From the NCBI GenBank assembly GCA_001630475.1, contig KV419405.1, positions 128,900-192,899 on the forward strand: a stretch of DNA of 64,000 nucleotides. Direction: 5' to 3'. Each line of letters opens with the position of its first letter. Positions within the stretch are counted from its first letter, which is position 1. This DNA comes from Sistotremastrum niveocremeum HHB9708 (lineage: Eukaryota > Basidiomycota > Agaricomycetes > Sistotremastrales > Sistotremastraceae). Shown one piece after another: positions 7,224-63,830 of the stretch. Made by a program: the position numbers and the translations under genes. The notes below the pieces were generated by a model, which was given only the letters and a program-made list of their open reading frames with translations, was not told the DNA's origin and searched no databases.

Positions 7224-9399
7224 TCAATCGAGTGAGGGCAAGGCTACTACCGGTAAACCATTTGCTTCCGAAAGTTCCAAAACTTCGCAATCCAACTTGT
7301 CCCCTCCTCCTATTTGAGTTTCCACGCATGCGAAATCAGTAGGCTGAAACCCGGAAGTCAGAACTTTTGTTTCTGGTGAAGTTTGAACAAGCCTACCTGT
7401 TCCAGCGCAATGATTGGATGGTGCCAGACTCCTGCGTTATATGAGACGCCTTGCGAAGCACTAGCAATGAAAGCCTTCAAAGTGCCCAGATCCGGTTTAT
7501 CGTCCTTCCCATTCAGAGCTACAATCACCAAGTACACTCTAGCATGGACAGTCAAATCGTCTGTGCCAACCCGACCACCAGAACCCATCGGAATGAACAC
7601 TTGATTGTTACATGGATGCCTTTCCAGAACACGAACAGTAAATTCCTTCCCTAGCTCTGCCTCAGACGGAGTTGAGCGGTAGATAGAGACACTTTGAGTC
7701 CCGGCCTTTCCTTCCGGGAACGAAGAAACTATGTCGGCCAGATTATTGAACTTGTTTGCAGTGCCCTGATTTGCAGGGGTGACTTTGATGCCGGGTGGTA
7801 CAGCTTTAAGGTTTCGATAAGCCTGACACACTGAGCCGAAAAGCGCAAATTCATCGTGAGATAAGAATTTGGCCTCATGAACGCCAGATCTCGACACTGA
7901 TGCGTCCACCACTTTAATAGGCGCCGATCCAGCGCCCTGTTTTGGGATTTCCACACTTCCATAAATCCGAACACGTTTAAGCCCGCCATCAGGGTATATC
8001 GTGACTCGGACATGTGTGTATTTTTTGTTCTTGACATTCTCAAGTTTGAACGAATGTATCTGATGTGCGAAGGTCTTCTGCCTCGATAGGATCAAATCCC
8101 ATTTTGCATCAAACGTCGGTGAGTCCTATGCCAGTCGTGAGCTGACTGATCGATATAACAGGAGAAACATGTCACACACAAGATCAGAATTAATGGCATG
8201 AAGTTCACAGCTTTCTGGGTAGTTGCCCTTGAAGTGCGCAGTATCGATGTCGACAGTGTCCAAAACACCGGCACGGGCGCTTTAAGAGTGTCACAAGAGT
8301 TACAGGATAGTTTCGACGATGGTACCACTCACAGCTTGATGATCAGCCATTCCGTATGACCTTTATCACGGCTTCTCCTCGTTTCCCACCCATCGCCCAT
8401 GTCTTTCCCTGGGAGGTGATCAGCATTTTCTCGACGGTTGGGAGAGCCAACGCTCGTACCACGACCGGGGAGAATGACATTGGAGGCAACGCCAAAGTGT
8501 TGATCAGAAACGTTCACCACTCTGCCACCATTAGAGACAAAGGCAAGATCAAAGATTTCACTTGGGTCTTTCGGTTCGTAAGGTGCGACCACTCCATAGA
8601 CTCGGAATCTAGCCTGGCGGGGTCGAATCAGGAATTGCAGAAATGCTGCTTGATTTGTCTTACAATGCCGCCATCAGGATATTGGTTCAGCCTGACCTGG
8701 CTGCAGCCTGGCGCAAGTTGTGATAATTGAAAGAGGTGTCTTGCATCCGGACCGAGGGGGACCTTCGGCAGGATCTCTTGCCACTTTGAGCCAGGCTTAG
8801 GGTCAGACAAAAAAGGAAATTTTTGTTCAGCTCACCTGTCCATTGATGAGCCCATCAACCGATGCTTCCGGGGCCTCGTTGCCTACATACACATGCCAAA
8901 TGAGGAAAGGAAATAGCAGATGGACAGGGGAGCGATTATATGGTACCATTAAAATGAGATGTATCGATGTCGAAGCCAACAATCGAACCGGGGGCACCGA
9001 GTCGAATAATGACCCTGCACGTTCGTTAGGGCAGATCAGCGAGAGTTGAAGACAGTGGACGCACCAGTCGTATGTTGGATTATGTCTCTTGGTCTCCCAA
9101 CCGCTATACAGCGCACCGTTCGGACCGAATTGGCCTTTCATGCTGGGAGCAGGCTGCACAACTGCAAATTAATTCTGCCATCTTGTGATGCGATCTTCAT
9201 CTTCACAAACCTCCACTTTGAGCAGATTAACTGCTTCCGCAAAAAATTCATCTGAAACCGAGACGATTGAGCCGCCGAGAGCGACACTGGAGAGCTCTGC
9301 ATGATAATAAGCAGATTATTGGTGCATTTGGGCGCAATGCTGACCAGTGAAAGAGGTGAGAGTCTTGTATTGCTCCGGGAGGAGAATTTTGTATGCCAT
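7224..9399 (-). CDS. Fused allantoicase-ureidoglycolate lyase (DAL2-DAL3 type)
   Basis: This is a bifunctional purine-nitrogen catabolism enzyme. The N-terminal part has the two allantoicase repeats: repeat 1 reads [20 protein letters not shown] and [18 protein letters not shown], and repeat 2 reads [40 protein letters not shown] and [12 protein letters not shown]. Allantoicase hydrolyses allantoate to ureidoglycolate and urea. The C-terminal part, from about 7760 downward, is an AllA/Dal3-type ureidoglycolate lyase with [17 protein letters not shown] and, in the last exon, [19 protein letters not shown]. That part yields glyoxylate and urea. Start 9399 ([17 protein letters not shown]) was chosen because its exon joins in phase to [10 protein letters not shown]. 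The stop is at 7224. No break separates the two activities, so consecutive steps sit on one polypeptide. Confidence 0.9.
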
Positions 9400-21004: not shown

Positions 21005-23925
21005 CTACAGGAGCCAGCGCTTGGCTTTACGTTGCCGACTTTCCTTTTCCCCCTCGAGGATATTATTCTCTCGGATCACCTTGAGAAACACACTTTCCAA
21101 CCCTATCGGTTCTATTGTGTACTCCGCAAACTGCCCGTGAGCATTCAGAGTGTGAAATATGCTCGCCAGTGTTCGTCCCTCTCTTAGCGGGACTTCGAAC
21201 CTAGTTGCGACATCCTCTGCCAGTTTTGAATCTGAAATATTGGACATCACTTCGTGGGCTTGGACTAGACTTACTCTAGTTCGTGCAGAGAAGTGCACTT
21301 CGTATGCTGCATATGGCTGCACGAGCGAGGCGGTTGTTCCAACTGCCAGCAGCTTCCCTGCCAGGATGCCCACTTTCGTAGCGAGGTTTGATGCTTCTTC
21401 CATGGAGTCTGATACCGGTTTGATAAGTAGTGACCATATTTGAACCTCATGGAACTTACGTGTTGTAATAACTATTGCTTTACCAACAGCTACTCTTTCG
21501 AAAGTTTTCCACATGTCACGCTTAGTTTTCGGGTCAAGTCCCGTTGAGAACTCATCAATCAGGACCACAGCCGGATTGCCTAGAACGCGTCAGATAAAAA
21601 CAAAAAAGGATGATAGAGTTCGTACCCATCAGTGATATGGCCAAAGCCAGCTTTCTCTGATTTCCACCAGAAAGCTTGCTGGCTAATCGGTCAATATACG
21701 GTAGGAGAGCTACGGCAGTGGCAAGTGTCTCTATATCCTGCTCTAGCCTGCCTGCCTTTGACACTCCTTTCAGCATTCCGTACACTCGCAGGTGCTCTCG
21801 GACGGTCAAATGAGGATCAATAGCCGTGAACTGAGGGCAGACTCCAAGCGAAAGGCGAGCGATAGAAGGGTGCCTTATTGCCGATGTTCCTTGGATGAGC
21901 ACCTCGCCCTCGTCTGGAACAACGTCCCCCCCTGGAGCTAATGAGCCTCGGTTTCCAAAATAAAACTCGCACATACGAATCATGTTAAATGTAGTCGTTT
22001 TCCCTGCTCCATTCGGGCCAAGCATAGCGAACACCGTGTTCGTCGACACACCAAAGCTGACATCATCGACAGCTTTCCCTGTAGCGCCGCTGAATTTCTT
22101 TGATACACCTAGAACGCGAAGAGCATCATCCGATTCCATCGCACGAGCTGCTTCTGCTGCCACGACATCGGTCGATGAAGTAGGAACAGGGAGTTTCTCA
22201 GGTAAGTCACGAACTCGGCGTTGGCGGCCACGTAACAATGACCACGAGGGTCGTCGAGACCCCGAGTCCGTCAGGACCAATATGGAGAAGAGGATCAACC
22301 CATAGACAACGAGGTATAAGATAGGCCCTCCGAACTTATCGATAGCGCCAAGCGATTTAGTGGAAAAGGTTCCGTCTGTACATAGAAGCGAGAAGAGGTT
22401 GACTGAGATCAAACACGCCCGAAGCTGAAATCGGATCGTCAGTAATCCACGACCGTGTGTGCGATGGGACACATACAACGCTTGCTACAGGAGATGCTAA
22501 TGATACAGTGAAATCTGACGTCAAAGACATTTATCACAAATTCACTGAAACATGAGCGCTGATTTGACATACGAATAATGGTTATGATGTGTGCTGCTTC
22601 TGACGTTTTCGCATAGGTGAGCGTAAGTAAATACCCAGCAAGATACAACTGGTCGAATAATTCATATTTAGCATCATCCCCCATATACGAGAACACTCAC
22701 GATAAACATAATAACTTGGTAGCCTGCAACAATAGCGAACGCAGCCAACGGCGATTTTGTGATAAGGCAGGCGCAGTAAGCAAATAAAGCAGCAGTCAAG
22801 CCATAAAGTGTCATGATGAGCCACTGTTGTATGAAGAAGTTGATAAGGGTTTCATAACGCGAAGAAAAATGCTTACAAAGAATCCAAGGCCATGAAACTG
22901 ATTAGAAGCCGTCGCAAATACAATGGTGATCAGAGTCGAGACAATTATACAAAAGATACCGTCAAACAAGAGATGACCAAGCCACAGGCCAATCGGGTTG
23001 GATAGACCGTTCGATAACTGCATTGCTTGAACTGATGATCTTCGCTCCTTCGACACATATAAAGCGAAAAAAGCCGGGAAAACGCCCTGTTGCACAGTTT
23101 AGAAAAAATCGGCAGAGAAAGGGAGAGAAAATTCTACCATTGTGGCACCGAAAAACGCGACCCATTTTAGTGCAAATAGCGACCCACCATCAACAGCCGG
23201 CAGACTTTGATAGTTTGCCGAGATAATATTCGCGATATCGAGGTTTCTTCCAGTCGAGTTGAGTGCCTTGTTATACAGCAGATTGCTAACCAAGTTCAGC
23301 AGTGAAGGTCCCGATATACTAGGAGCAGATGCCTCCCATGCAACCAATGCAGAATTGGATGAGAAGTCAACGGACACGCCACCCAAAGTGAGATTGTGGA
23401 ATTCAGATCCGATTGTCTGGACGAATGTAGCGTTATCGATGAGGTTTGTGGTCTGAATTCCGTCTGTTATGTCGCCGAGTAAAGGAAGTAGGTTTGGCGG
23501 TGCAGTGAGAAGATGCGCGAACTGTCCCGCTGTGCCGAAGATAGATCCATAGAGCGGCGAGAGAGGTAGAAAGAGGGGAATGTTGTCCGCTACATCGAAG
23601 TCAACAGCACATGTCTCTTGACGTCCATTCATGAAGAATAATGGAATGCAAGATCCAGCAATTGCGATCACCACCATCAACAGCGGTGTGAACCAGCTTC
23701 GCTTCAGGACGAGCCAGCGTTTATACATTATTGTCGAGGCTTGGCGGAGCGAATTTTGAGCGCAACCATTGCTGAGTTCGAGAGGGGCATGATCATCCGG
23801 CAAGTCAACAGAATCTTCGGAATGCTTCGATTCCACAACCTCGGGTTTCCGGTTTGATTCATCCATCAACCGCACAAATATATCCTCGAGGGTGCTGCCA
23901 TTGATATCATAAGAGACAATTCCGA
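21005..23925 (-). pseudogene. ABCA-type ABC transporter, 3' half only, cut at the LTR element
   Basis: The remaining part holds one membrane domain and one nucleotide-binding domain, matching the second half of a full ABCA transporter. In order on minus are the end of the linker after NBD1 (IVSYDINGSTLEDIFVRLMD), a large extracytosolic loop region, several membrane helices, and then NBD2. NBD2 has Walker A GPNGAGKTTTFNMIR, a Q-loop near GVCPQFTAIDPHLTVREHL, signature LSGGNQRKLALAISLMG and Walker B VVLIDEFSTGLDP, ending AKRWLL at 21005. Introns and frames look intact. ABCA proteins normally have TMD1-NBD1 before this point, and here the gene ends abruptly at 23925 where the LTR begins. The missing half is not found on the other side of the element. 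What remains may be a non-functional remnant, or the gene may be whole in another assembly. Confidence 0.8.
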
Positions 23926-24166
23926 TGTTGGAATTCAAGCTTAGATTACAATTCGTATATAGTGTTCGGACTTAACGGACTTAAGTAGTTAATACTCCGC
24001 GCCCTCGCGCCTACGCTCTTCAGTTGAAACCAGCAACTGAAGAGTAAGTCATTCGTTTATCTTAGTATCGTCGCTCCTTGCTAATAGTCTCTAGTTGCCT
24101 TGTAAAAGGTATTTACACATTCTTTAATACAGTTGAAACCAGCAACTGAAGATTGCCTTGTAAAAG
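23926..24166 (+). repeat. Left LTR of the copia element
   Basis: These 241 bp begin TGTTGGAATTC and are repeated at 28608-28848. Inside it is a hairpin word (ctcttcagttg, loop aaaccag, caactgaagag) and a second shorter copy of the same hairpin near the 3' end. The word TTGCCTTGTAAAAG also occurs twice. The end TAAAAG is defined by where the two copies stop agreeing. Confidence 0.9.
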
Positions 24167-25794
24167 GTTATGAGCCCTGGTACGGGCTAGTCTGACATGT
24201 CGCTATCCGTATCCAACAAGGATCTATTCACGGTCCCCAAGCTCCAGGAGAACGGCGGCAACTGGGTTCTCTATAAAGCATCCATCGAGTCCATCATCAC
24301 CGCGCGAGGCTATGAAGAACACCTGGATGGAACTGTCTCCATTCCGAAACCACCTCCTGCCGACCCACCTCCCTCCGAAACCGATCTCGCGACCTATCGA
24401 AAACAAAGTAATCAGTATAAGAAGGAACGCGAGACTGTCAAATCCATCATCCGAGGTTCTCTTCCGGATTCCCTGCAGATCAAAACCTTGACTGCTGTCT
24501 CTGCTCATGACATGTGGAAAATAGTTTGCTCGCAGTACACGGATCAGAGTCAGCGGACGAAAGTCAGCATATTCTATGCTATGGGAGACATCCGCTGCTC
24601 GGATTCCGAGGATCCTCGCACCACCCTAAACACCCTCTCCCGACTTCGCGAGGACTATGCCGCAGCCGGTGGTACAATCGAAGACGAAATGTACACCGCA
24701 ATCATCATGCGAGCTATGCCCGATAAAGTCCAACCTCTTATCGACGGCCTTAATTCCACTTCCCAACTCACAAAAATCTGCATCACGTCGTCCGATCTCA
24801 TTAACCAAATCACCAAATTCGCCAAAGTCGAAGTCTCCAAGGCCGCATCTAAAAAGGCCGAAGATGACGCTCTCTCTGCTCGCCTCACCGCGTACCTGGC
24901 TAAAAAGGAATCCAAGAAAGGGAAATCCAAGAAGTCCAAGGACGACGACGATGTATGCGAGAATTGCAAGAAGCCGAATCATAAGAAGGCAGACTGCTGG
25001 TCGAAAGGTGGCGGTAAAGAAGGTCAAGGTCCTCGGAGCAAGAAAGGGAAGAAGGACAGCGCTAAAGCTGCTATCTCGTCTGTGGATTCCGATTCCGACG
25101 ACGAAGACAGCGCCTGTTCGTGGCTCGTCACCACCGATTTCTCCCTCATCTCCAATATTCCTCCCGAAAGTGGTTCCATCCGCGTCCTTGACAGCGGAGC
25201 CTCTCGCCACTTCGATCCCTGCCGCGATCACTTCGTCAACTTCACTCCCATCGAACCTCGACCAATCAGCGCAGCCGACGGCCACGAGTTCTTCGCAACA
25301 GGCATTGGTGACGTAGTCTTTGAGACTATGGTTGATGGTCAGGCCAAAACCATTACGCTCACACGCACCCTTTACGCTCCGCAAATGCCCATTGCCCTCG
25401 TCTCTGCCAGTCGCCTCGATAAAGCCGGATTCGCCATTCATATCGAAAAGAGAGTATGCGCAGTCTCAAAGGAGGAGAAGACCTTCGCCGAGTTCCATGA
25501 ACTCAATGGTCTCTACCATCTCTTGTCTCGCACTCCTACGAAGAAGGCCTCCGCCAAATCCGCCACAACCGCTGAATCTGCTAAACCTGCCAAACCCACC
25601 GATCTTCACGTCACCATCTACGAACTCCATAAGCTCATGGCGCATATATCTCCAAAAGCTGCGGAGAAACTCGTGCGGGACGGACTCGTCACTGGCATCA
25701 AGCTGATCACGAAAGAGGGGGAGCCGAAGACGTGTGGCATCTGTCCACAGGCAAAGCAGACTCGGAAACCTCATCCGAAGATCCGCGAGAGCAA

Positions 25795-25882
25795 CTTCAG
25801 AAAAAAATAGACCAGCTAATTCAGCTCCTGAGTACTCAGGAGTACTCAGGAGCTGAATTAGCTGGTCTATTTTTTTCTGAAG
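25795..25882. repeat. Perfect inverted repeat, 42-bp arms, 4-bp loop
   Basis: The left arm 25795-25836 and right arm 25841-25882 are exact reverse complements around the loop cagg. The arms include AATAGACCAGCTAATTCAGC and its complement. It lies in the internal region of the copia element. Such a structure is not a normal part of copia elements and could be a fold-back replication product or a library/assembly artefact. Confidence 0.9.
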
Positions 25883-28607
25883 AAGCGTATGGAGCATTAC
25901 GGTGACCGAGTTCACAGTGACGTATCTGGACCGGCACCGAAGGCCACCAGAAAAGGGATGAAATACTTTGTCACCTTCACCGACGACTATTCACGCGAAA
26001 CCTATCTGGTCCTCCTTAAGAGCAAGGATGAAGTCTTCAAAACCTATAAGGAATACAAAGCCTGGGTCGATAAGCAGCGGAACAGCGTCATTAAGGAATT
26101 CCAGAGCGATCGAGGTGGAGAGTATACCAGCGAGGAATTCTCTGCTCATCTGAAGTCCAAAGGAACTATTCGTCGCCTGAATGTCCACGATTCCCCTTCC
26201 CAGAACGGCATCTCCGAACGTCTCAACCGAACTCTCAAGGAGAAGGCTCGAGCCATGCGCATCGAAGCCGGCCTACCTCTGTCGCTATGGGGAGAAGCTA
26301 TTCGTCATGCTGTCTGGTTGAAGAATCGCACTTCAACTCGCGCTCTACCCGGGAAAACTCCATACGAAATGGTCCACGGGAAGAAGCCAGATCTGTCACA
26401 GCTTCACAAGTTCGGGTGTAAGGTTTGGGTTCATATCGAAGCTAACTCCAAGCTCGATCCCAAATCAAAACACTGTCAATGGCTTGGCTTTGACTCAGAA
26501 AGCAAAGGGCATCGGATTTATTGGCCAGAAACCGGGAGAGTCTCTGTTGAAAGAAACATCATCTTCGACAAGAATGACGTATCTCCTCCGGTTATCATGA
26601 TTGAGGGGGAGTCTAGCGATATCAATCAACCCACTCCGGAAGATACATCATCCAAACCCGGAAATACTCCCTCATCATCGCCAAAATTATCCCCTCGCCC
26701 ATCGCCAACGCTTCGTGGCACCACTCCTCCATCATCTCCCAGCTCCCTTAAACCCCTCGCCGATCTCATGAACGAATTCGAAAACGAGACAACACCATTG
26801 GACGAAACAGAAGAGTCTTCTGCGCCTCTAGGTCGCGGTCATCGTACGAAAACACCGTCATTGAAGTTGAGGGACATCCAATCTGGGATCGGATCATCCA
26901 CAGGTCTAAACCCTCGCAAATCATCAGCTTCACCATCCTCTGATATCCCACAAGCTTCTCTCGCCTACGTCACCGAACTCGAAGAAGACTTCAAATCAGG
27001 GGGAGTATTCGCCTTCGCTGCTACCACCGCTGGTGGAGAACCGGAGAGCATGCGGGAAGCGATGAAGACCAAGGAGTGGCCGGAATGGAGATCCGCGATG
27101 GAAGCCGAAGTGGAAGGTCTTAAAGCACGTGGAGTGTACGAACTCGTACCTCGTCCTCCTGGCGTCAACGTGGTCAGCAACCGTTGGGTCTACAAAATCA
27201 AGCTCGATGCACTCGGAAAGCCGGTAAAATACAAGGCAAGAGTCACAGCTCGTGGATTCACTCAAAAATACAAGGTTGACTACTTCGAAACCACTGCCCC
27301 CGTCGCCAGATCCGCCTCCAACAAAATTCTCCTTTCCCTCGCTACTCGTAACGACTGGGACATCTACCAAGCCGACTTCGAGCAAGCTTTCCTCAACGGA
27401 ACCCTCCGAGAGACTGTCTACATGGAACAAGTCGAAGGCTTCGAAGATCCGGACAATCCCGATCACGTCTGCCTACTGCTTCATCCGCTCTACGGTCTAA
27501 AGCAGGCCGCACGAGAGTGGTACCTGACCGTCCTCAAACTTCTAGAAGATTTGGGATTTACCCGTAGCCAGGTTGATCCCGCCATCTTCTACCGACACGA
27601 GCCAAATGGAATCTCAACATTCCTAGGAATCCATGTCGACGATGTCCACAGTACAGGTAATGACACACCCACACTGTTGGATATTCATCGTCGGATCGAG
27701 GCCGTGTATCCCATCAAATTCCTCGGTGATATCCATTGGCTACTGGGATTTCTGGTCGAACGCGATCGAGAGAATCGGATCTTATCTCTGTCACAGGAAA
27801 GTTATATTGACGCCATGGCAAAGAGATTCAACCTTTCAGATTGTCGACCTACCCATTCTCCCATGGTTCCAGGCGCCAAATATACTCGCAGTCAGTGTCC
27901 CACATCCCAATCCGAGATTGACGAAATGAAGAACGTTCCCTATCTCGAACTCATCGGATCTCTGAACTACGCGGCCACTGGTACCCGTCCTGATATCGCC
28001 TACCCCGTCTCTGTTCTTGCGCAATTCATGAACAATCCAGCTCGCATCCATTGGGAAGCCGCCAAACGAATTCTCCGCTATCTCGTCACCACGAAAGACA
28101 AGAAGCTCACCTTCGGCGCTACCAAGGATGGCCTCTCCGTCTATTGCGACGCCAGTTTTGCTCGCGAAGATCTTGACTGGAAATCCGTCACCGGATATGT
28201 CGTTATGATCGACGGAGGAGCCGTAAGCTGGAGTTCTCGCAAACAATCCATCATTGCACTTTCCACAGCAGAAGCCGAATACATCGCCATGTCCCATGCT
28301 GTCCGCGAACTTCTCTGGGTTCGCATGTTCTTCGAAGATGTCCTTTCCCCTCTCCAATATCCCACAACTCTCTTCGGTGACAACCAAAGTGCAATTGCGA
28401 TGGCCAAGGAACACAAATTCTCACCCCGAACCAAACACATCGCCCTTCCTTATCATTTCATTCGCGAGATGGTCGCTCGTAATCAAGTCATCCTCAAATA
28501 TATTCAGACCGACAGCCAAATTGCCGATATTCTTACCAAGGCATTGGACTCTCCAAAGATAGAGAAATTCTCTCTCGGGCTTGGACTGCATCCAGCTTGA
28601 GGGGGAG

Positions 28608-28848
28608 TGTTGGAATTCAAGCTTAGATTACAATTCGTATATAGTGTTCGGACTTAACGGACTTAAGTAGTTAATGCTCCGCGCCCTCGCGCCTACGCTC
28701 TTCAGTTGAAACCAGCAACTGAAGAGTAAGTCATTCGTTTATCTTAGTATCGTCGCTCCTTGCTAATAGTCTCTAGTTGCCTTGTAAAAGGTATTTACAC
28801 ATTCTTTAATACAGTTGAAACCAGCAACTGAAGATTGCCTTGTAAAAG
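28608..28848 (+). repeat. Right LTR of the copia element
   Basis: These 241 bp match the left LTR at all but about one position and carry the same two hairpin words. The copy follows directly after the polypurine tract gagggggag. The following sequence, from 28849, belongs to an exon of the MLKL-like family. Confidence 0.9.
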
Positions 28849-31879: not shown

Positions 31880-34006
31880 TCATTCGGGTCTAATTCTTCT
31901 TGCTGAATGCGGAGAGGAGAGCATCACCGAATCGTTTCTTGGGCCGTTTCGAGATGTCGATTCGGTCGCATGTTCAGAGACTTCTGTGACGGATGCGAAG
32001 GGCAGGTTGGATGCATCGGTACTATCGGAAACGGGGAGAAAGCCGTATGAACCGAGATCTCGAAGGAGTGGAAGGATGCGGTCATTGAGTCTTTCATAGG
32101 TAAGAAATGGTGCTCTGAATTGGCATTATTGATTGAAGCGAAGGGCAAGAGGTCGGACTTACGCGCAAAATTGAACTTCAGCGGCATCAGCTTGGAAGTG
32201 AAAATCATGACAGAGAGGGTCGGGAGACAAAGACCAGAAGCCTGGCGGATCCGGCGGGACCATCGCGGGGCCGTCGGAGTTGGGATAGGCGAAGTAGTAG
32301 ATAGTTGAGGTCTGTTCATTGGAGGTTCTGAGGGAAGCATCAACTACCAGGCCCGATTGAGACACTACAGACAGTCAATAGATGAGATTATGAGGGAAGG
32401 GGGACTGACCATGGCGAAGCGAATGAACGTCGACCCCAGATCCGCGAGCAAGTGACAGTGCACATCCATAAAAGAAGTCGGTAGTTTCTCTTGTGCCGTG
32501 CGACAGGACAAACGAGCGGAGATAGACTTCCTCACCCGAAGAAACATCGATCGACCATCTAAGACGATTGAGTGGCGAAATCAAGACACTCACAAGACTG
32601 ACCTGGTGAATTCTTCGACCTGTGTTCCCACGATTGTGTCCCACTCTCCGTCGCGCAATCGAGCTGCAGTGAGGAGATATTGTGGTGGCTGTGCAACTGG
32701 TATCTGATGGCGTAGAGAAATCGAATGCCAGACTTTTCCGTCGATCCAGCCAATTTCACCGACTGTCAGCGAAGTTTCAGTTCTTTGCTCTCTCGGACTC
32801 GTTTCGCTCCACTGCTTCAGACAAGTCCACAGATCTCGGGCATTCTTCTCCGTCTTCTCTTCATTGCAATTTGTCACCGATTCCCTCATTGCCTCGAATA
32901 AATCTGCATATTCTTCGAACGACCAACTTCCTCCCGCAGTCGCGTCTGCGCCGATTGAGAAAGGTTTCCCGAGCGCGAAATCCGACTCACCAAATCCATC
33001 CCTTAACTGTCCTTACATCAGCGCTTGATCTTCATGGTCAACGTTCACTCATCCTACAGAATGCTTCCCACGTCCGCGACCCTGAATCCTCCCACTGGCC
33101 ATCCATTCTTCCCAATCCTCACATGCACAACCGCTTTTCCTTTGCACTTAACAGAAAATCATGATACTGTCCAGCCCTGTCACTGGCGGCGTGCCTCGCA
33201 TGTTCCAAATACTCACCCCTCCTCTCCAAGAGCCTCTGTGTTCACGAAGAAACTTGGATCCGGCCTGCCGTACTTAATTCGCTGGTAAATGGTCCACTGA
33301 TCATGACGCACCACATATTCACACATCTACTTCTGTGTTAGTTCAACGTGGACACCAAGAAAGTGATGCGCACAATTCGCGAATGCTCCAGGAAATATTC
33401 GAGTTCGTGTAGATTCTGGAGGTAGTCGTACGCAACAATGGTGCCTTCTTTCACTATTAACCCATCATCTTCCTCATAGTCGTGCCACTCACCAGCCTCC
33501 ATCACAATCATCTTTGTTCTCCGACTGGCAATTGAAATCCCAAGCATTCTCGCGAAAGAAGCATCTCTGCATCCGCCGATGAAATGTCAGGGAGTCGAAT
33601 CATGCGACAAGTATAGAACTCACAGCAGATCACGCCGCAACTCAGTCTCACAATCAAACCTATCTTGAGCTCTGTCTTCGCATGGATCCATCGTTTGAAA
33701 CTTCTTGACTATGACGGCTCTCTGGTATCCAGACTGATCAAGCATTCTGCCTTTAGCGAACCGAACGGTATATCCCCTCATTTTCTGACAGCTAATTTCT
33801 TCCAGGAGCATGATGTTTTCAGTTGGTATACGACGAATCTCACAAGATAGGTCAGTGGATGGTGCTGCACGGCATCTTCGCGATGCACACACCTGATCTG
33901 GTTCCTCTCCAATGACTAGCTTTTGAGAACCGGAGCTCAAGGCCATGGCTCGCAGGCCATTGACGAGCACCGTTAATTTGTTATCAGCAGCAATCGAGGA
34001 CTCGAA
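31880..34006 (-). pseudogene. MLKL-like family member lacking its N-terminal exons
   Basis: Exons D to L of the family are present in order. Exon D starts at 34006 after a TATAG acceptor (FESSIAADNKLTVLVNGLRA) and includes RRIPTENIMLLEEISCQK and RAVIVKKFQTMDPCEDRAQ. Exon E has MLGISIASRRTKMIVMEAG, followed by MCEYVVRHDQWT. Next come CNEEKTEKNARDLWTCLKQW, RWSIDVSSGEEVYLRSF, PPDPPGFWSLSPDPLCHDF and LTYERLNDRILPLLRDLGSY. It is a pseudogene on two counts: a TGA at 33119-33121 replaces a Gly codon of the GGLG motif, and the last exon appears out of frame before the basic tail (KRPKKRFGDALLSAFSKKN in another frame). The helical N-terminal exons A-C are absent next to it. Confidence 0.8.
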
Positions 34007-56622: not shown

Positions 56623-57934
56623 TCAAGGCGATAGCACCCAATCAGGGTCGTCCTGATCATCTTCGTCCTCCACTTCTTCCTCCTCGATGTCCTCCGCCTC
56701 CGACGAAAGCTCTTCTGCAGCCTCTTCGTCACCCACTTCGCCATCACTCCAGTCGGTTTCGCTAGCGCTGTCAGTTTCAGGTTCGTCCTGGTCGTCCAGC
56801 CACGGCGTACCGTCTGCTGGATTGGGTTGTGGTCCGCGTCCGGTATTGTCTCTGGATCTGGATCGTGCTCGCGAATTGGCTTTACTGGAGCCCAGAGCTG
56901 AAGTTTGCCGTTTGGACTGCAGAAACCACTTTGTGTCTTCATCCCTCTCTCCCGCAAGCATCACCAGATACCACAACGCGAGTTCCATGGTGAGCTTGGT
57001 CTCCCCTGAGGCAGAACGAGGGACACGCTTTGACAGTTCGAGATGTCCCGGCAAATCCTCTCCAGCCTCATTCACCATCTTGCGAACACAGATGAGTTCC
57101 TTATCTGTGATGATGCATCCGTAGCGGCAATTTCGCTGGTCCATGTAGAAGTTTAATTGCGCAAGAACTTGCATGAAATCGACACGAGATTGCTTTTCCT
57201 GCTTGGAACGCCATCTCGCGCGGAAGTTGTACGACGGTTTCACTTCAATCGAAACGCAGCCCGTATTCTTTGGAGTCTTGGCAACAAGGTCGTCGCTGAA
57301 GTTGTTGCCGATCTTGATGACTGTGCCGGAGACAATGTACATGTACAGATGCTTTTCGTCGAGGAGCTTTTGGACTGCTGCCTGCGGAGGGGAGCTCGGA
57401 TCCATCTCATGATGGGCGTGGTCTAAGCCACGGTTGACGGCCGTGATTAGCCCTTTCGCCAGGCGTAGGGAAATTTCGGTTTCGCCCTGGACAGTGTCGC
57501 CCTTGCGATGGGATGGATAAACCTGTCTAGCGGGGCATCGGGTCTTCAGAACGTCTCCATACTTTCGCTGGATATCCTCGAGATGGAAATCAGTCCATCT
57601 GTGCATGCCCTTGATGTCTCCTGCCCTATACTGGGTGCTCGACGTGAGAGACCCGGGGGGTTGTTCTGCCCTATCAGGATTGATCCTGATGCGAGGACGG
57701 GGTTTCGTGAGGTATTGTAGGAGGGTTCTCTTCTTTGTTGTCTTTCGTGGAGGTGTGCTCAGCTGGCAGGGGAACAAGGTCAGTCAAGATCGTTCAAGGA
57801 ACTCCGAGTCGATCCTATGACCACAGTACCTTGGACGATTTGCTCAGCTTTTCGATCTGGTTCGGGCTCCATTCGACATCCCTTCTTCTCTTTTTTGCTC
57901 GAGGTGGAGTCCTGGGCGGACTTGATTGAGACAT
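56623..57934 (-). CDS. PD-(D/E)XK nuclease-like protein with acidic C-terminus
   Basis: The first exon from 57934 (MSQSSPPRTPPRAKKRRRDV, EWSPNQIEKLSKSSK) joins in phase to LSTPPRKTTKKRTLLQYLTK. The middle has a possible nuclease core: SDDLVAKTPKNTG, then VSIEVKPSYNF (the ExK half), then a helix with RVDFMQVLAQLNFYMDQ and a strand GCIITDKELICVRK. D, ExK and a following Gln-bearing helix are the usual order in PD-(D/E)XK folds. The last 100 residues are strongly acidic and low-complexity, ending DDPDWVLSP. No partner domain is visible. Similar proteins are common in Agaricomycete accessory regions, but their substrates are not known to me. Confidence 0.6.
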
Positions 57935-61102: not shown

Positions 61103-63830
61103 TCAAGGATTTGAAACTTTTCTTTTCCTGCTGAATATCGACAACAGATTCTTTGCACGGTGTTTCTTGCCACGGGCTACAACGGCTGATTCGGTGGCAT
61201 GTTCGGAGATTTCTGCGATGGAGGCGAAGGATGGACCGGACGCATAGGTGATATCCGGAACTGTGAGGAAGCCATGCGACTCGAGATCTTGAAGGAGAGA
61301 CAAGACACGGTCATTGATCACGTCGTATCGGATGTACGGATTGCTGAATGTACATCAGCCGACGAGCCAGACGGGAGGATCCACGTACTCACATGCGATA
61401 GCGAACGTGTGCGGCATCACCACGGAGGTGGCAATCGGAGCAGAGGGGATCCGGAGAAAGCGACCAGAACCCAGGCGGATCAGGCACGCAATTACCGGCA
61501 GTGGGTGGATGAGCAAAGTAGTGGACAGTTGAGGGCTCGAATACCGTGAGAAAGGCATCAACTTGGAAGCCCGTGTTAGACACTACGAACAGTCAGCGTC
61601 GACGTTTATGACAGGTGAAGACTGACGAAGGCGGAGGGAATGAACGTCGATTCCCAATACCTTGGCAAGTGACAGCGCAGATCCAAGAAAGAAGTCGGCA
61701 ATGTCTTCTGTGCGAAGCGATCGGATAAACGTGCGAAGATAAATTTCCTCTCCCGGCGAGACGTGGATCGACCATCTGCGGCGATTGAGTCATCAAATCG
61801 AGAAAATCAAAGAATCTGACCTTGTGTATCCACTGATCCGGGTTCCTACGATTGTCTCCCGCTCTCCGTCACGCGATCGAGAAGCAGTGATGAAATATTC
61901 TGGTGGCTCAGCGAGTGGGAATTGATGAAGTAGAGGAATCAAATGCCAGTCCTTTCCCTCTTTCCACCCAATTTCACCAACAGACCGTGAATTCTCTGTT
62001 TTATACTCAAACTCACTCGAATCGCTCCACCACCGCAGCCAATCCAACAGATCTCGCGCATTCTCTTTCGTTTTCTCTTCATTCCACCTTGTCACTGCTT
62101 TCCTCATTCGCTCGAACTCATCTGCATAGAATTCGAAGGACCTGGTCGCTCCCCAATTGCCATCTGCGTCGAGTGAGAATATGTCTCCTCACAACAAACC
62201 CCAACTCACCTCGTCCCTCCCTCAGCTGTTCCTCCTTCAGCACTGAGAATTTGCAGTCAACGATCACTCACCCTCCAGAATGCCTCGTTCATCCGCCACC
62301 CTGAATCCTCCCACCGACTATCCATTCTTCCCAGTCCTCCCAAGCACAACCGCTTGTCTCGAGCACTCAGCAGAACATCTTGATACTGCTTGAAGGCATC
62401 ACTCGCCGCTTGTCTTATATATACGCGAAACACTCACCCCTCCTCTCCAGGACCCCCTGAGTTCCCGAAGAAATTGATATCCTGCCTGCCGTCCTTTCGT
62501 AAGCCCTGAGTACACGTCCACTGAACATGACACACCACAAATTCACACATCTAGTGCTGTATTAGCTTCACATAGACGCCGAAAGCATGGCACTCACAAT
62601 GCGCGAATGCTCAAGAAAATACTTGAGACCTGGCAAACTTTGGAAGTATTCGAATGCGACAATGCTGTCTTTGGTCATAGTGAGTTCCAGACCTTGAGTA
62701 CAATCAGTCGACGTACCAGCCTCAATCACGATCATCTTTGTTCTCCGGCTAGCGATTGAAACACCAAGCATCCTGGCAAACAAAGGATGTCTGCACCCAC
62801 AACAGACATGGTCAAAGATCGGAATCATGCTATAGGTGCGTAACTCACAGTAGGTCACGTCGTAATTCAATCTCGCTATTGAACGCATTCCGAGCTCGGT
62901 CTTCGCATGCATCCATCGTTTGAAACTTCTTTACAATGACGGCTCTTTTATGTCCAGCCCAATCGATCATTCGAGCTTTTCCAAACCGGATCGTATATCC
63001 TCTCTTTGATCGACAACTGATTTCTTCTAGGAAAGTGATGTCTTCGGTTGGGATCCGGCGAATCTGTCGAGGTGCATCAGCCTCTAGCATCACATTTGAG
63101 TTCACGTGCATGCATACCTCATCTGGCTCATCTTGATTGGCGGGTAATGTGGCATTCGCGCTCAAAGACATGACTTGCATCCGATTTAGGATGCCAGTCA
63201 ACTTGGTATCGGCAGCTAATGAAAATTGAAACTTCACACTGATTAGTGCGCTGTATATCGTCGTTCAGATATATATACGTACCATGTACATCTGATATGC
63301 TTCGTTTAGTCTGTTCAGACAATCTTTCGTCTCATCTTGTATGCTCGCTGTTTTGAAAATGCGCTTCCGTCCCAGTTCATTTCCAAGTCGCTCAACCGTT
63401 GTCGAAACGCCGGTCAAGACTCTACGAAATATCAATCAAGAATCAATGGCGTGCTTCGATATAGAAGAAAGGATAGCACTCACTCCAGATAACGCTCAAG
63501 GCGTTCTCTCAAATCATCAGACAGAGGCTCCTCCAATCCTTCTTCATGATCCAGCCACGATTTGAGAACCAGGATTTGCTCAGCAGCACGTCTTGCGATG
63601 TCACTGCACTCCTCTTTATTCACCCTGACTCGCTATTTCGATATGAGTTGACAAATATAAGAAATATAAAATTGAAGCAGACCGACCTCCGCAGTCTCTA
63701 TCAGTGTAATCCCCACCCCTGCGACGCACTTAACGATCCCACCCGCCGGCGCAGGAATAGCTTCTCCCGCACTCTGCAAAGCCTTCAATCTGTTGAGAAG
63801 GTTGGCAGTCGTGTCTGGTGAGAGAGGCAT
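61103..63830 (-). CDS. MLKL-like protein: helical N-terminal domain plus degenerate kinase domain
   Basis: Twelve exons (63687-63830, 63484-63632, 63283-63421, 62849-63231, 62598-62790, 62438-62550, 62272-62401, 62210-62234, 61821-62163, 61627-61775, 61393-61582, 61103-61343) join in phase through GT-AG introns to 732 codons plus stop. Residues 1-144 are helical (VAGVGITLIE, NKEECSDIARRAAEQIL, QDETKDCLNRLNEAYQMYM), like the MLKL/Cbl-N four-helix type seen in fungal NLRs. Residues about 205-400 look like a kinase: RAVIVKKF (Lys245), EIELRRDLLHPLFARMLGVS (helix C), hinge KMIVIEAG, then YQDVLLSARDKRLCL and GGLG. HRD is absent and GLG stands where DFG is expected, so it is probably a pseudokinase. 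The C-terminal region has WSIHVSPGEEIYLRTF and PDPPGFWSLSPDPL and a basic end. Helical executioner plus pseudokinase is the MLKL layout, so a membrane-active cell-death role is possible but unproven. Confidence 0.75.

Follow-up and report, generated by a model that had tools for sequence, protein, structure and literature searches.

The 64,000-nucleotide stretch of DNA analyzed here (the window) carries on its minus strand, at 63830..61103, a real and intact gene whose product has an N-terminal domain homologous to MLKL_N and continues into a region that is likely, if short of proven, to be a degenerate kinase (Table 1). A second copy in the window is a decayed paralog, and the genome holds a larger family to which both belong.

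Table 1. Features of the gene, its paralog, and a retroelement, in window coordinates
Feature	Position	Strand	Remarks
Whole gene	61103..63830	-	15 exons, 673 codons; intron positions and phases common to paralogs
Exons 1-5	63830-63687, 63632-63484, 63421-63283, 63231-63118, 63063-62849	-	
Exons 6-10	62790-62717, 62668-62598, 62550-62536, 62485-62438, 62385-62272	-	
Exons 11-15	62225-62210, 62163-61821, 61775-61627, 61582-61393, 61343-61103	-	
N-terminal extension before the bundle	63717..63830	-	place where the available part of PMC9815663 describes an extra helix, hG, in basidiomycete MLKL-like domains
MLKL_N-like (putative executioner) domain	63286..63716	-	residues 39-143, exons 1-3; profile matches and reversed control
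Intron 3 and exon 4	63118..63282	-	linker (residues 145-182) in exon 4, under weak constraint (pN/pS 0.45)
Intron 4	63064..63117	-	54 nt; coding in the first chain
Pseudokinase-like domain	62272..63063	-	residues 183-361, exons 5-10; Lys227 and Glu246 kept; HRD region SWRG, DFG place GLG
Intron 6, at the hinge	62669..62716	-	coding in the first chain; boundaries possibly shifted by 4 nt
Intron 8	62486..62535	-	50 nt; coding in the first chain
Residues 362-651 (exon 11 to most of exon 15)	61172..62225	-	no convincing family match; includes the parts with the gene's highest pN/pS
Basic C-terminal tail and stop	61103..61171	-	residues 652-673 (GKKHRAKNLLSIFSRKRKV...)
Second family copy	31895..34006	-	no executioner exons aligned; one in-frame stop, two frameshifts
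Copia frames	gag, 24191-25810; integrase/reverse transcriptase, 25862-28600		between the 241-nt repeats

Elsewhere in the window, a copia-type long terminal repeat (LTR) retrotransposon (23926-28848) is bounded by 241-nt direct repeats that are 100% identical and adjoins ABC-transporter frames (21555-22484); no clear target-site duplication was seen in the few flanking bases inspected. A single open frame at 7358-8125 (minus strand) matches an allantoicase repeat and, after it, ureidoglycolate lyase, enzymes that carry out two steps of one purine-degradation pathway, and a 386-residue open frame with an acidic tail at 56623-57783 (minus strand) has no Pfam match at E 0.01. Shortly ahead of the window (G000:C12:125-126 kb) lies a kinase-type gene which was considered as a partner and rejected; it has the catalytic loop HCDLKPEN and a DFG motif (IDFGSA) and, by eye, a DYRK/Yak1-type look.

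Gene structure

The preliminary description had joined the gene into a chain of 12 exons and 732 codons. This chain joins exactly as claimed, and its two ends hold, but comparison with the paralogs gives 15 exons and 673 codons. Because the first chain contained two introns of just 36 and 25 nt, it came under suspicion, and the exons were corrected using 24 loci of the same genome, with a spliced protein-to-DNA aligner written for the purpose and with DNA alignments of the copies. Splice signals conserved across these alignments were at odds with the first chain at 6 of the 14 final introns (introns 3, 4, 6, 8, 9, and 10): both ends of introns 3 and 10 and the acceptor of intron 9 were revised, and introns 4, 6, and 8 had been taken as coding. 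The introns of the final model (n = 14) are 44-62 nt long, and two of its exons are tiny (exon 8, 15 nt; exon 11, 16 nt). Its protein keeps 653 of the 732 residues of the first chain; the 79 that drop out came from intron or wrong-frame sequence, and 20 residues are new.

An intermediate model of 14 exons and 689 residues was dropped for the 15-exon model because the stops and frameshifts of several copies clustered in one short variable stretch with conserved splice signals. A stop or frameshift was needed in 15 of the 24 loci under the last pass of the 689-codon model, versus 3 of 24 under the final model. The correction is credible because it was made jointly for all copies and removes the apparent damage of the earlier models; most lesions vanish across the paralogs, and a chance chain of open reading frames would not behave in this way. 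The intron phase pattern (02002100001212) is complete in fifteen other loci and is shared by the window copy bar intron 6, the boundaries of which are ambiguous by 4 nt in this copy, either reading giving 673 codons. Intron 6 of the window copy is also open in frame, so that its retention would escape notice by reading frame alone. By eye, this intron apparently ends in AAG in most copies, versus the usual pyrimidine-AG. We infer the splicing of the 15-exon chain from conservation among the copies; under this corrected model the gene reads from Met to stop without lesion, and the earlier claim of an intact gene stands.

Domains of the predicted protein

Against Pfam MLKL_N (PF22215), the window protein matched over residues 39-143 with an E-value of 0.0004 and 20.4 bits, the curated cut-off being 27; its N-terminal 169-182 residues alone gave 23.7-23.9 bits, still below that cut-off, and E-values for the window copy ranged from 3e-5 to 4e-4 across tests. 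MLKL_N matched all seven copies scanned (one without its first residues; best E, 1.6e-9) and nine of ten rows in the N-terminal set, which contains one duplicate (best E, 1e-10), and one further copy reached 38.4 bits against the cut-off of 27. None of nine reversed N-terminal sequences matched. When a profile of the N-terminal set was searched against all PDB sequences, the first seven matches were MLKL sequences (E, 7.4e-5 to 0.0051), followed by a designed coiled coil (0.16) and the plant helper NLR ADR1 (0.21). The reversed set also found helical proteins (best E, 0.0041), meaning that helical composition alone buys part of the N-terminal signal, and E-values of that size were not counted by themselves. 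Since the best forward matches are better than the reversed ones and all belong to one family, we took homology of the N-terminus to MLKL_N as shown at the level of sequence profiles. The alignments involved (A1-A3; 7, 11, and 10 rows drawn from the 24 loci) were built on the 689-residue model, and a phmmer search of the PDB with the single full-length protein of that model returned weak matches alone (best E, 0.61).

The MLKL-like N-terminal domain of the preliminary description was thus borne out by Pfam MLKL_N in the copies, by the PDB profile, and by the reversed-sequence control, and its probable helical nature is supported via this homology. The kinship that had been put forward was with MLKL_NTD/HeLo-like families; MLKL_N was matched, but the families listed for this protein and its copies (25 of 29 in one scan) did not include Pfam HeLo, Helo_like_N, SesA, or Goodbye. 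Pfam scans of the protein and copies likewise found no NTPase match, i.e., no NLR fusion, in this gene. Ahead of the MLKL_N match lies an extension of about 30-38 residues, conserved in the six alignment rows that include it.

Residues 183-361 contain several kinase-like stretches: AVIVKKF, a helix-C-like FxxEIELRR, a hinge-like IVIEA, and DVLLS...LGGLG. The VIVKK, helix-C-like Glu, and GLG noted at the outset are present, and HRD and DFG are absent as had been stated, at positions that depend on a weak JAK2 alignment. Across the 24 loci, the beta3 Lys position holds K in 6 (the window copy among them) and R in 17, one locus lacking an alignment there. All but one, which has a stop at that place, retain the alphaC Glu (23 of 24), and the HRD and DFG places read SWRG and GLG in most, again as positioned by the weak JAK2 alignment.

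Several tests point to a kinase, each individually weak. Pfam PK_Tyr_Ser-Thr matched the whole protein at E 0.066 in the older model and 0.11 in the final one and matched the isolated domain of the older model at 0.013, all below cut-offs; it also matched 4 of 11 members of an older kinase set (best E, 0.0066). In a Pfam scan of two other copies under the final model, one gave an E-value of 0.037 for the kinase family, whereas the other, scanned as an isolated kinase region, matched no Pfam family; kinase membership never passed a cut-off in any profile test. The final kinase copy profile had 43 PDB matches, of which 42 were tyrosine kinase chains and 41 were named JAK2 (E, 0.21-0.62); these matches are hardly independent because they are largely chains of one protein. 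Nearly all of the JAK2-type alignments extend to the position of DFG. The top PDB match of this profile was a designed coiled coil (E, 0.00023) arising from repeated weak stretches. When scored with a profile of kinases from the same genome, 18 of the 24 copies lay above the best of 24 reversed copies (11 of 24 with the earlier model). When the pseudokinase was compared profile to profile with three active kinases of the same genome, nothing was found, both alignments being shallow; the kinase alignment (A7) comprises 12 of the 13 intact copies (c90_a omitted). On these comparisons the proposed pseudokinase survives as the likely reading of the middle region, though not a proven one.

Some 260-310 residues beyond the kinase-like domain are aligned among the copies, and a Pfam scan of the copies gave no convincing family match for residues 362-673. 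A structure model of a single exon (113 aa) suggests two helices and then strands, at low confidence (mean pLDDT, 56). By eye, the basic tail closes nearly every covered copy end and resembles a bipartite nuclear signal; its sequence would be equally compatible with polybasic membrane binding, and its helical moment was no better than that of shuffles.

Family expansion, constraint, and module exchange

The genome (34.7 Mb, 111 contigs) is of basidiomycete type, to judge by the preliminary description and the kinds of domains in it. A search of it with the gene found 122 matching stretches, arranged in tandem on the window's contig (C12) from the window end onward and also on C65 and C90, and single elsewhere. 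We modelled 24 loci and left seven further match places outside the model set, so the family has at least 24 loci, many of them in tandem. Ten copies were modelled over about 66 kb of C65 (G000:C65:12370-78208), with further matches besides, and two on C90; these copies possibly belong to one broken-up tandem array. In the final model, 13 of the 24 loci are intact from Met to stop without lesion, and seven more (g6, c65_d, c65_e, c65_k, c65_m, c8, and c35) are free of lesions but are part-covered, contain a stretch of N, or end unusually on the 3' side. The remaining four are g2, gW2, and c45, each with a stop or frameshift, and c25, which is clean in the final model because solely its part after codon 230 aligned; gW2 and c25 are without an aligned executioner part.

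Constraint is unequal along the gene. Among the 13 copies out of 24 that are intact (final model; 78 pairwise comparisons), the executioner had the lowest median pN/pS (0.18), ahead of the C-lobe (0.27), the linker (0.45), and the N-lobe (0.48); the three parts beyond the kinase region had medians of 0.67, 0.52, and 0.60, with segment limits that were set after an earlier-model profile had been seen. No segment had a median above 1, and as every median lies below that value, positive selection is not claimed. Median pS fell from 0.70-0.74 in the segments up to codon 255 to 0.36-0.47 between codons 255 and 640 and was 0.62 in the tail; judged by pS alone, the low values in the 3' part fit exchange or homogenisation between copies.

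Most of the difference between copies falls in the linker, in the kinase N-lobe, and downstream of the kinase region. In the N-lobe tree, five copies (g1, g2, c65_d, c65_i, and c65_l), named as a group from their N-lobe sequences ahead of tree building, form one clade with support of 100/99. The executioner data reject this clade (p-AU, 0.0031 for protein and 0.0023 for DNA) as well as the nine-copy union of the five with four more (1.5e-5 and 5e-12); executioner and pseudokinase modules have therefore been exchanged between copies. The 3' data did not reject the N-lobe clade and recovered it with support of 50/41. Rows left out were gW2 and c25 in the N-lobe tree, these and g6 in the executioner tree, and gW2 and c65_k in the 3' tree. 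Tandem expansion, module exchange, unequal constraint, and the long region after the kinase-like domain all lie outside what the preliminary description predicted.

Proposed role and relation to known systems

On balance, and with only modest confidence, we favor the reading that the family encodes self-inhibited, membrane-active executioners of MLKL architecture that would serve non-self recognition or defence. Residues 39-143 would form an MLKL-type helical bundle which, once released, inserts into or disrupts the plasma membrane. On the model of MLKL, restraint of the bundle and reception of the signal would fall to the dead kinase-like domain and the C-terminal region; if these regions change or bind a partner, the bundle may be freed and would then kill the cell upon non-self, be it a fusion partner, a parasite, or a bacterium. 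Through module exchange, a single conserved killer domain could be coupled to many triggers, and the strong constraint on the bundle together with the weaker constraint downstream fits such an arrangement. The role in cell death or allorecognition suggested at the outset is plausible, as it fits the clustered expansion, module exchange, and uneven constraint. A bolder form of this proposal, which we regard as unlikely, is receptor-less, NLR-independent non-self recognition in a basidiomycete by dozens of single-chain sensor-executioners, in which the conserved killer domain is recombined with different pseudokinase N-lobes and a fast-changing C-terminal sensor. If true, ectopic exchange between tandem copies would create new specificities, much like NLR repertoires but on an MLKL architecture.

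The MLKL-like bundle might instead be an oligomerisation or adaptor domain, making the protein a signalling scaffold (e.g., for an NLR or a true kinase) that itself kills nothing, which we think somewhat unlikely. A homologous bundle also precedes a receptor-type frame in the same genome: at locus L080 (G000:C58:39500-42000), an MLKL_N-like open reading frame (E, 6e-5; 23.0 bits, below the cut-off) lies directly before a STAND-NTPase/TPR match in another frame. This is the NLR layout in which the available part of PMC9815663 places basidiomycete MLKL-like (BaMLKL) domains, known here as adjoining frames. The extension before the MLKL match speaks for a scaffold as well, as the same part of PMC9815663 wants experiments before cell-death activity is ascribed to Goodbye-like domains, whose bundle is extended N-terminally, and BaMLKL is extended too. 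The strong constraint on the bundle, however, fits scaffold and executioner alike, and none of the present results separates the two.

We consider quite improbable a nuclear or regulatory role for a lineage-specific family in which the basic tail is the guide and the dead kinase domain is a protein-binding module. By eye, basic clusters occur in nearly all copy ends that reach the tail, and the kinase-like domain looks dead, but constraint on the tail is comparatively low (identity, 0.47; pN/pS, 0.60), its sequence would suit membrane binding equally well, and the MLKL_N homology would go unexplained. Slightly more doubtful still is canonical two-component necroptosis, in which the pseudokinase loop would be phosphorylated by a second protein, an active kinase, in the manner of RIPK3 and MLKL. 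The architecture parallels that of MLKL, and the genome carries many kinase-type matches; against it, no linked activating kinase or NLR gene was recognized by eye in the cluster spacers (ten stretches, five partly covered), and the TKL-like kinase locus L066 has no MLKL-type N-terminus by eye. Both negatives are weak because the genome search with Pfam MLKL_N, which works exon by exon and therefore yielded one place only, missed even the present family. That the copies are a decaying, transposition-spread family with little present function is highly improbable, given 13 of 24 loci intact, conserved splice sites, and an executioner pN/pS of 0.18, even with 4 of the 24 modelled loci bearing lesions or without an executioner part and a copia-type element in the window.

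The favored reading, of self-inhibited executioners, takes its outline from animal MLKL, which the family resembles in having an N-terminal bundle homologous by profile, then a linker, and then a probable kinase-like domain without catalytic residues. MLKL ends after its pseudokinase domain. The MLKL-like layout of the preliminary description therefore holds for the bundle and probably for the kinase-like domain after it but not for the some 260-310 further residues; the family also differs from animal MLKL in the extension before the bundle, in its at least 24 loci, and in having no known RIPK3-like partner. Plant MLKL proteins combine a bundle with a kinase-like domain and act in immunity, a likeness drawn by description and not by sequence comparison; they are named in the available part of PMC12881547.

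According to the same part of PMC12881547, the HeLo/HELL executioners HET-S and HELLP belong to a related four-helix superfamily and are activated via C-terminal amyloid motifs. Unlike these, the present protein has a kinase-like domain after the bundle, with no Pfam HeLo/HELL family among the matches listed. The combination of a bundle with a kinase or pseudokinase in fungi is already on record, as PMC12881547 mentions fungal HELL proteins with a kinase/pseudokinase domain; in the part available, that mention comes without a family name, copy number, C-terminal region, or evolution, and it can be compared by description only. No clustered MLKL-pseudokinase family in basidiomycetes is described in the literature titles and abstract openings among the matches listed. 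PMC11476962 mentions an MLKL of the fungus Basidiobolus, and both it and PMC10197012 give background on the subject. Section 18 of PMC12881547, as far as available, calls for a broader survey of HeLo/4HB proteins in fungi and of the extent of shared necroptosis, and the present family, being large, clustered, and in part intact, with its domains in the MLKL order, supplies concrete genes for that question. With constraint uneven and modules exchanged between copies, the family hints that MLKL-type killers may have diversified in fungi as NLRs did.

Fungal HeLo/HELL and basidiomycete MLKL-like domains are both tied to cell death in the available parts of PMC12881547 and PMC9815663. BaMLKL domains, described in the latter on NLRs or alone and extended N-terminally by helix hG, share with the present family an MLKL_N-like domain with an extension at the hG position. 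Unlike BaMLKL on NLRs or alone, the bundle here is followed by a likely pseudokinase and a further region, in tandem families, a distinction drawn by description.
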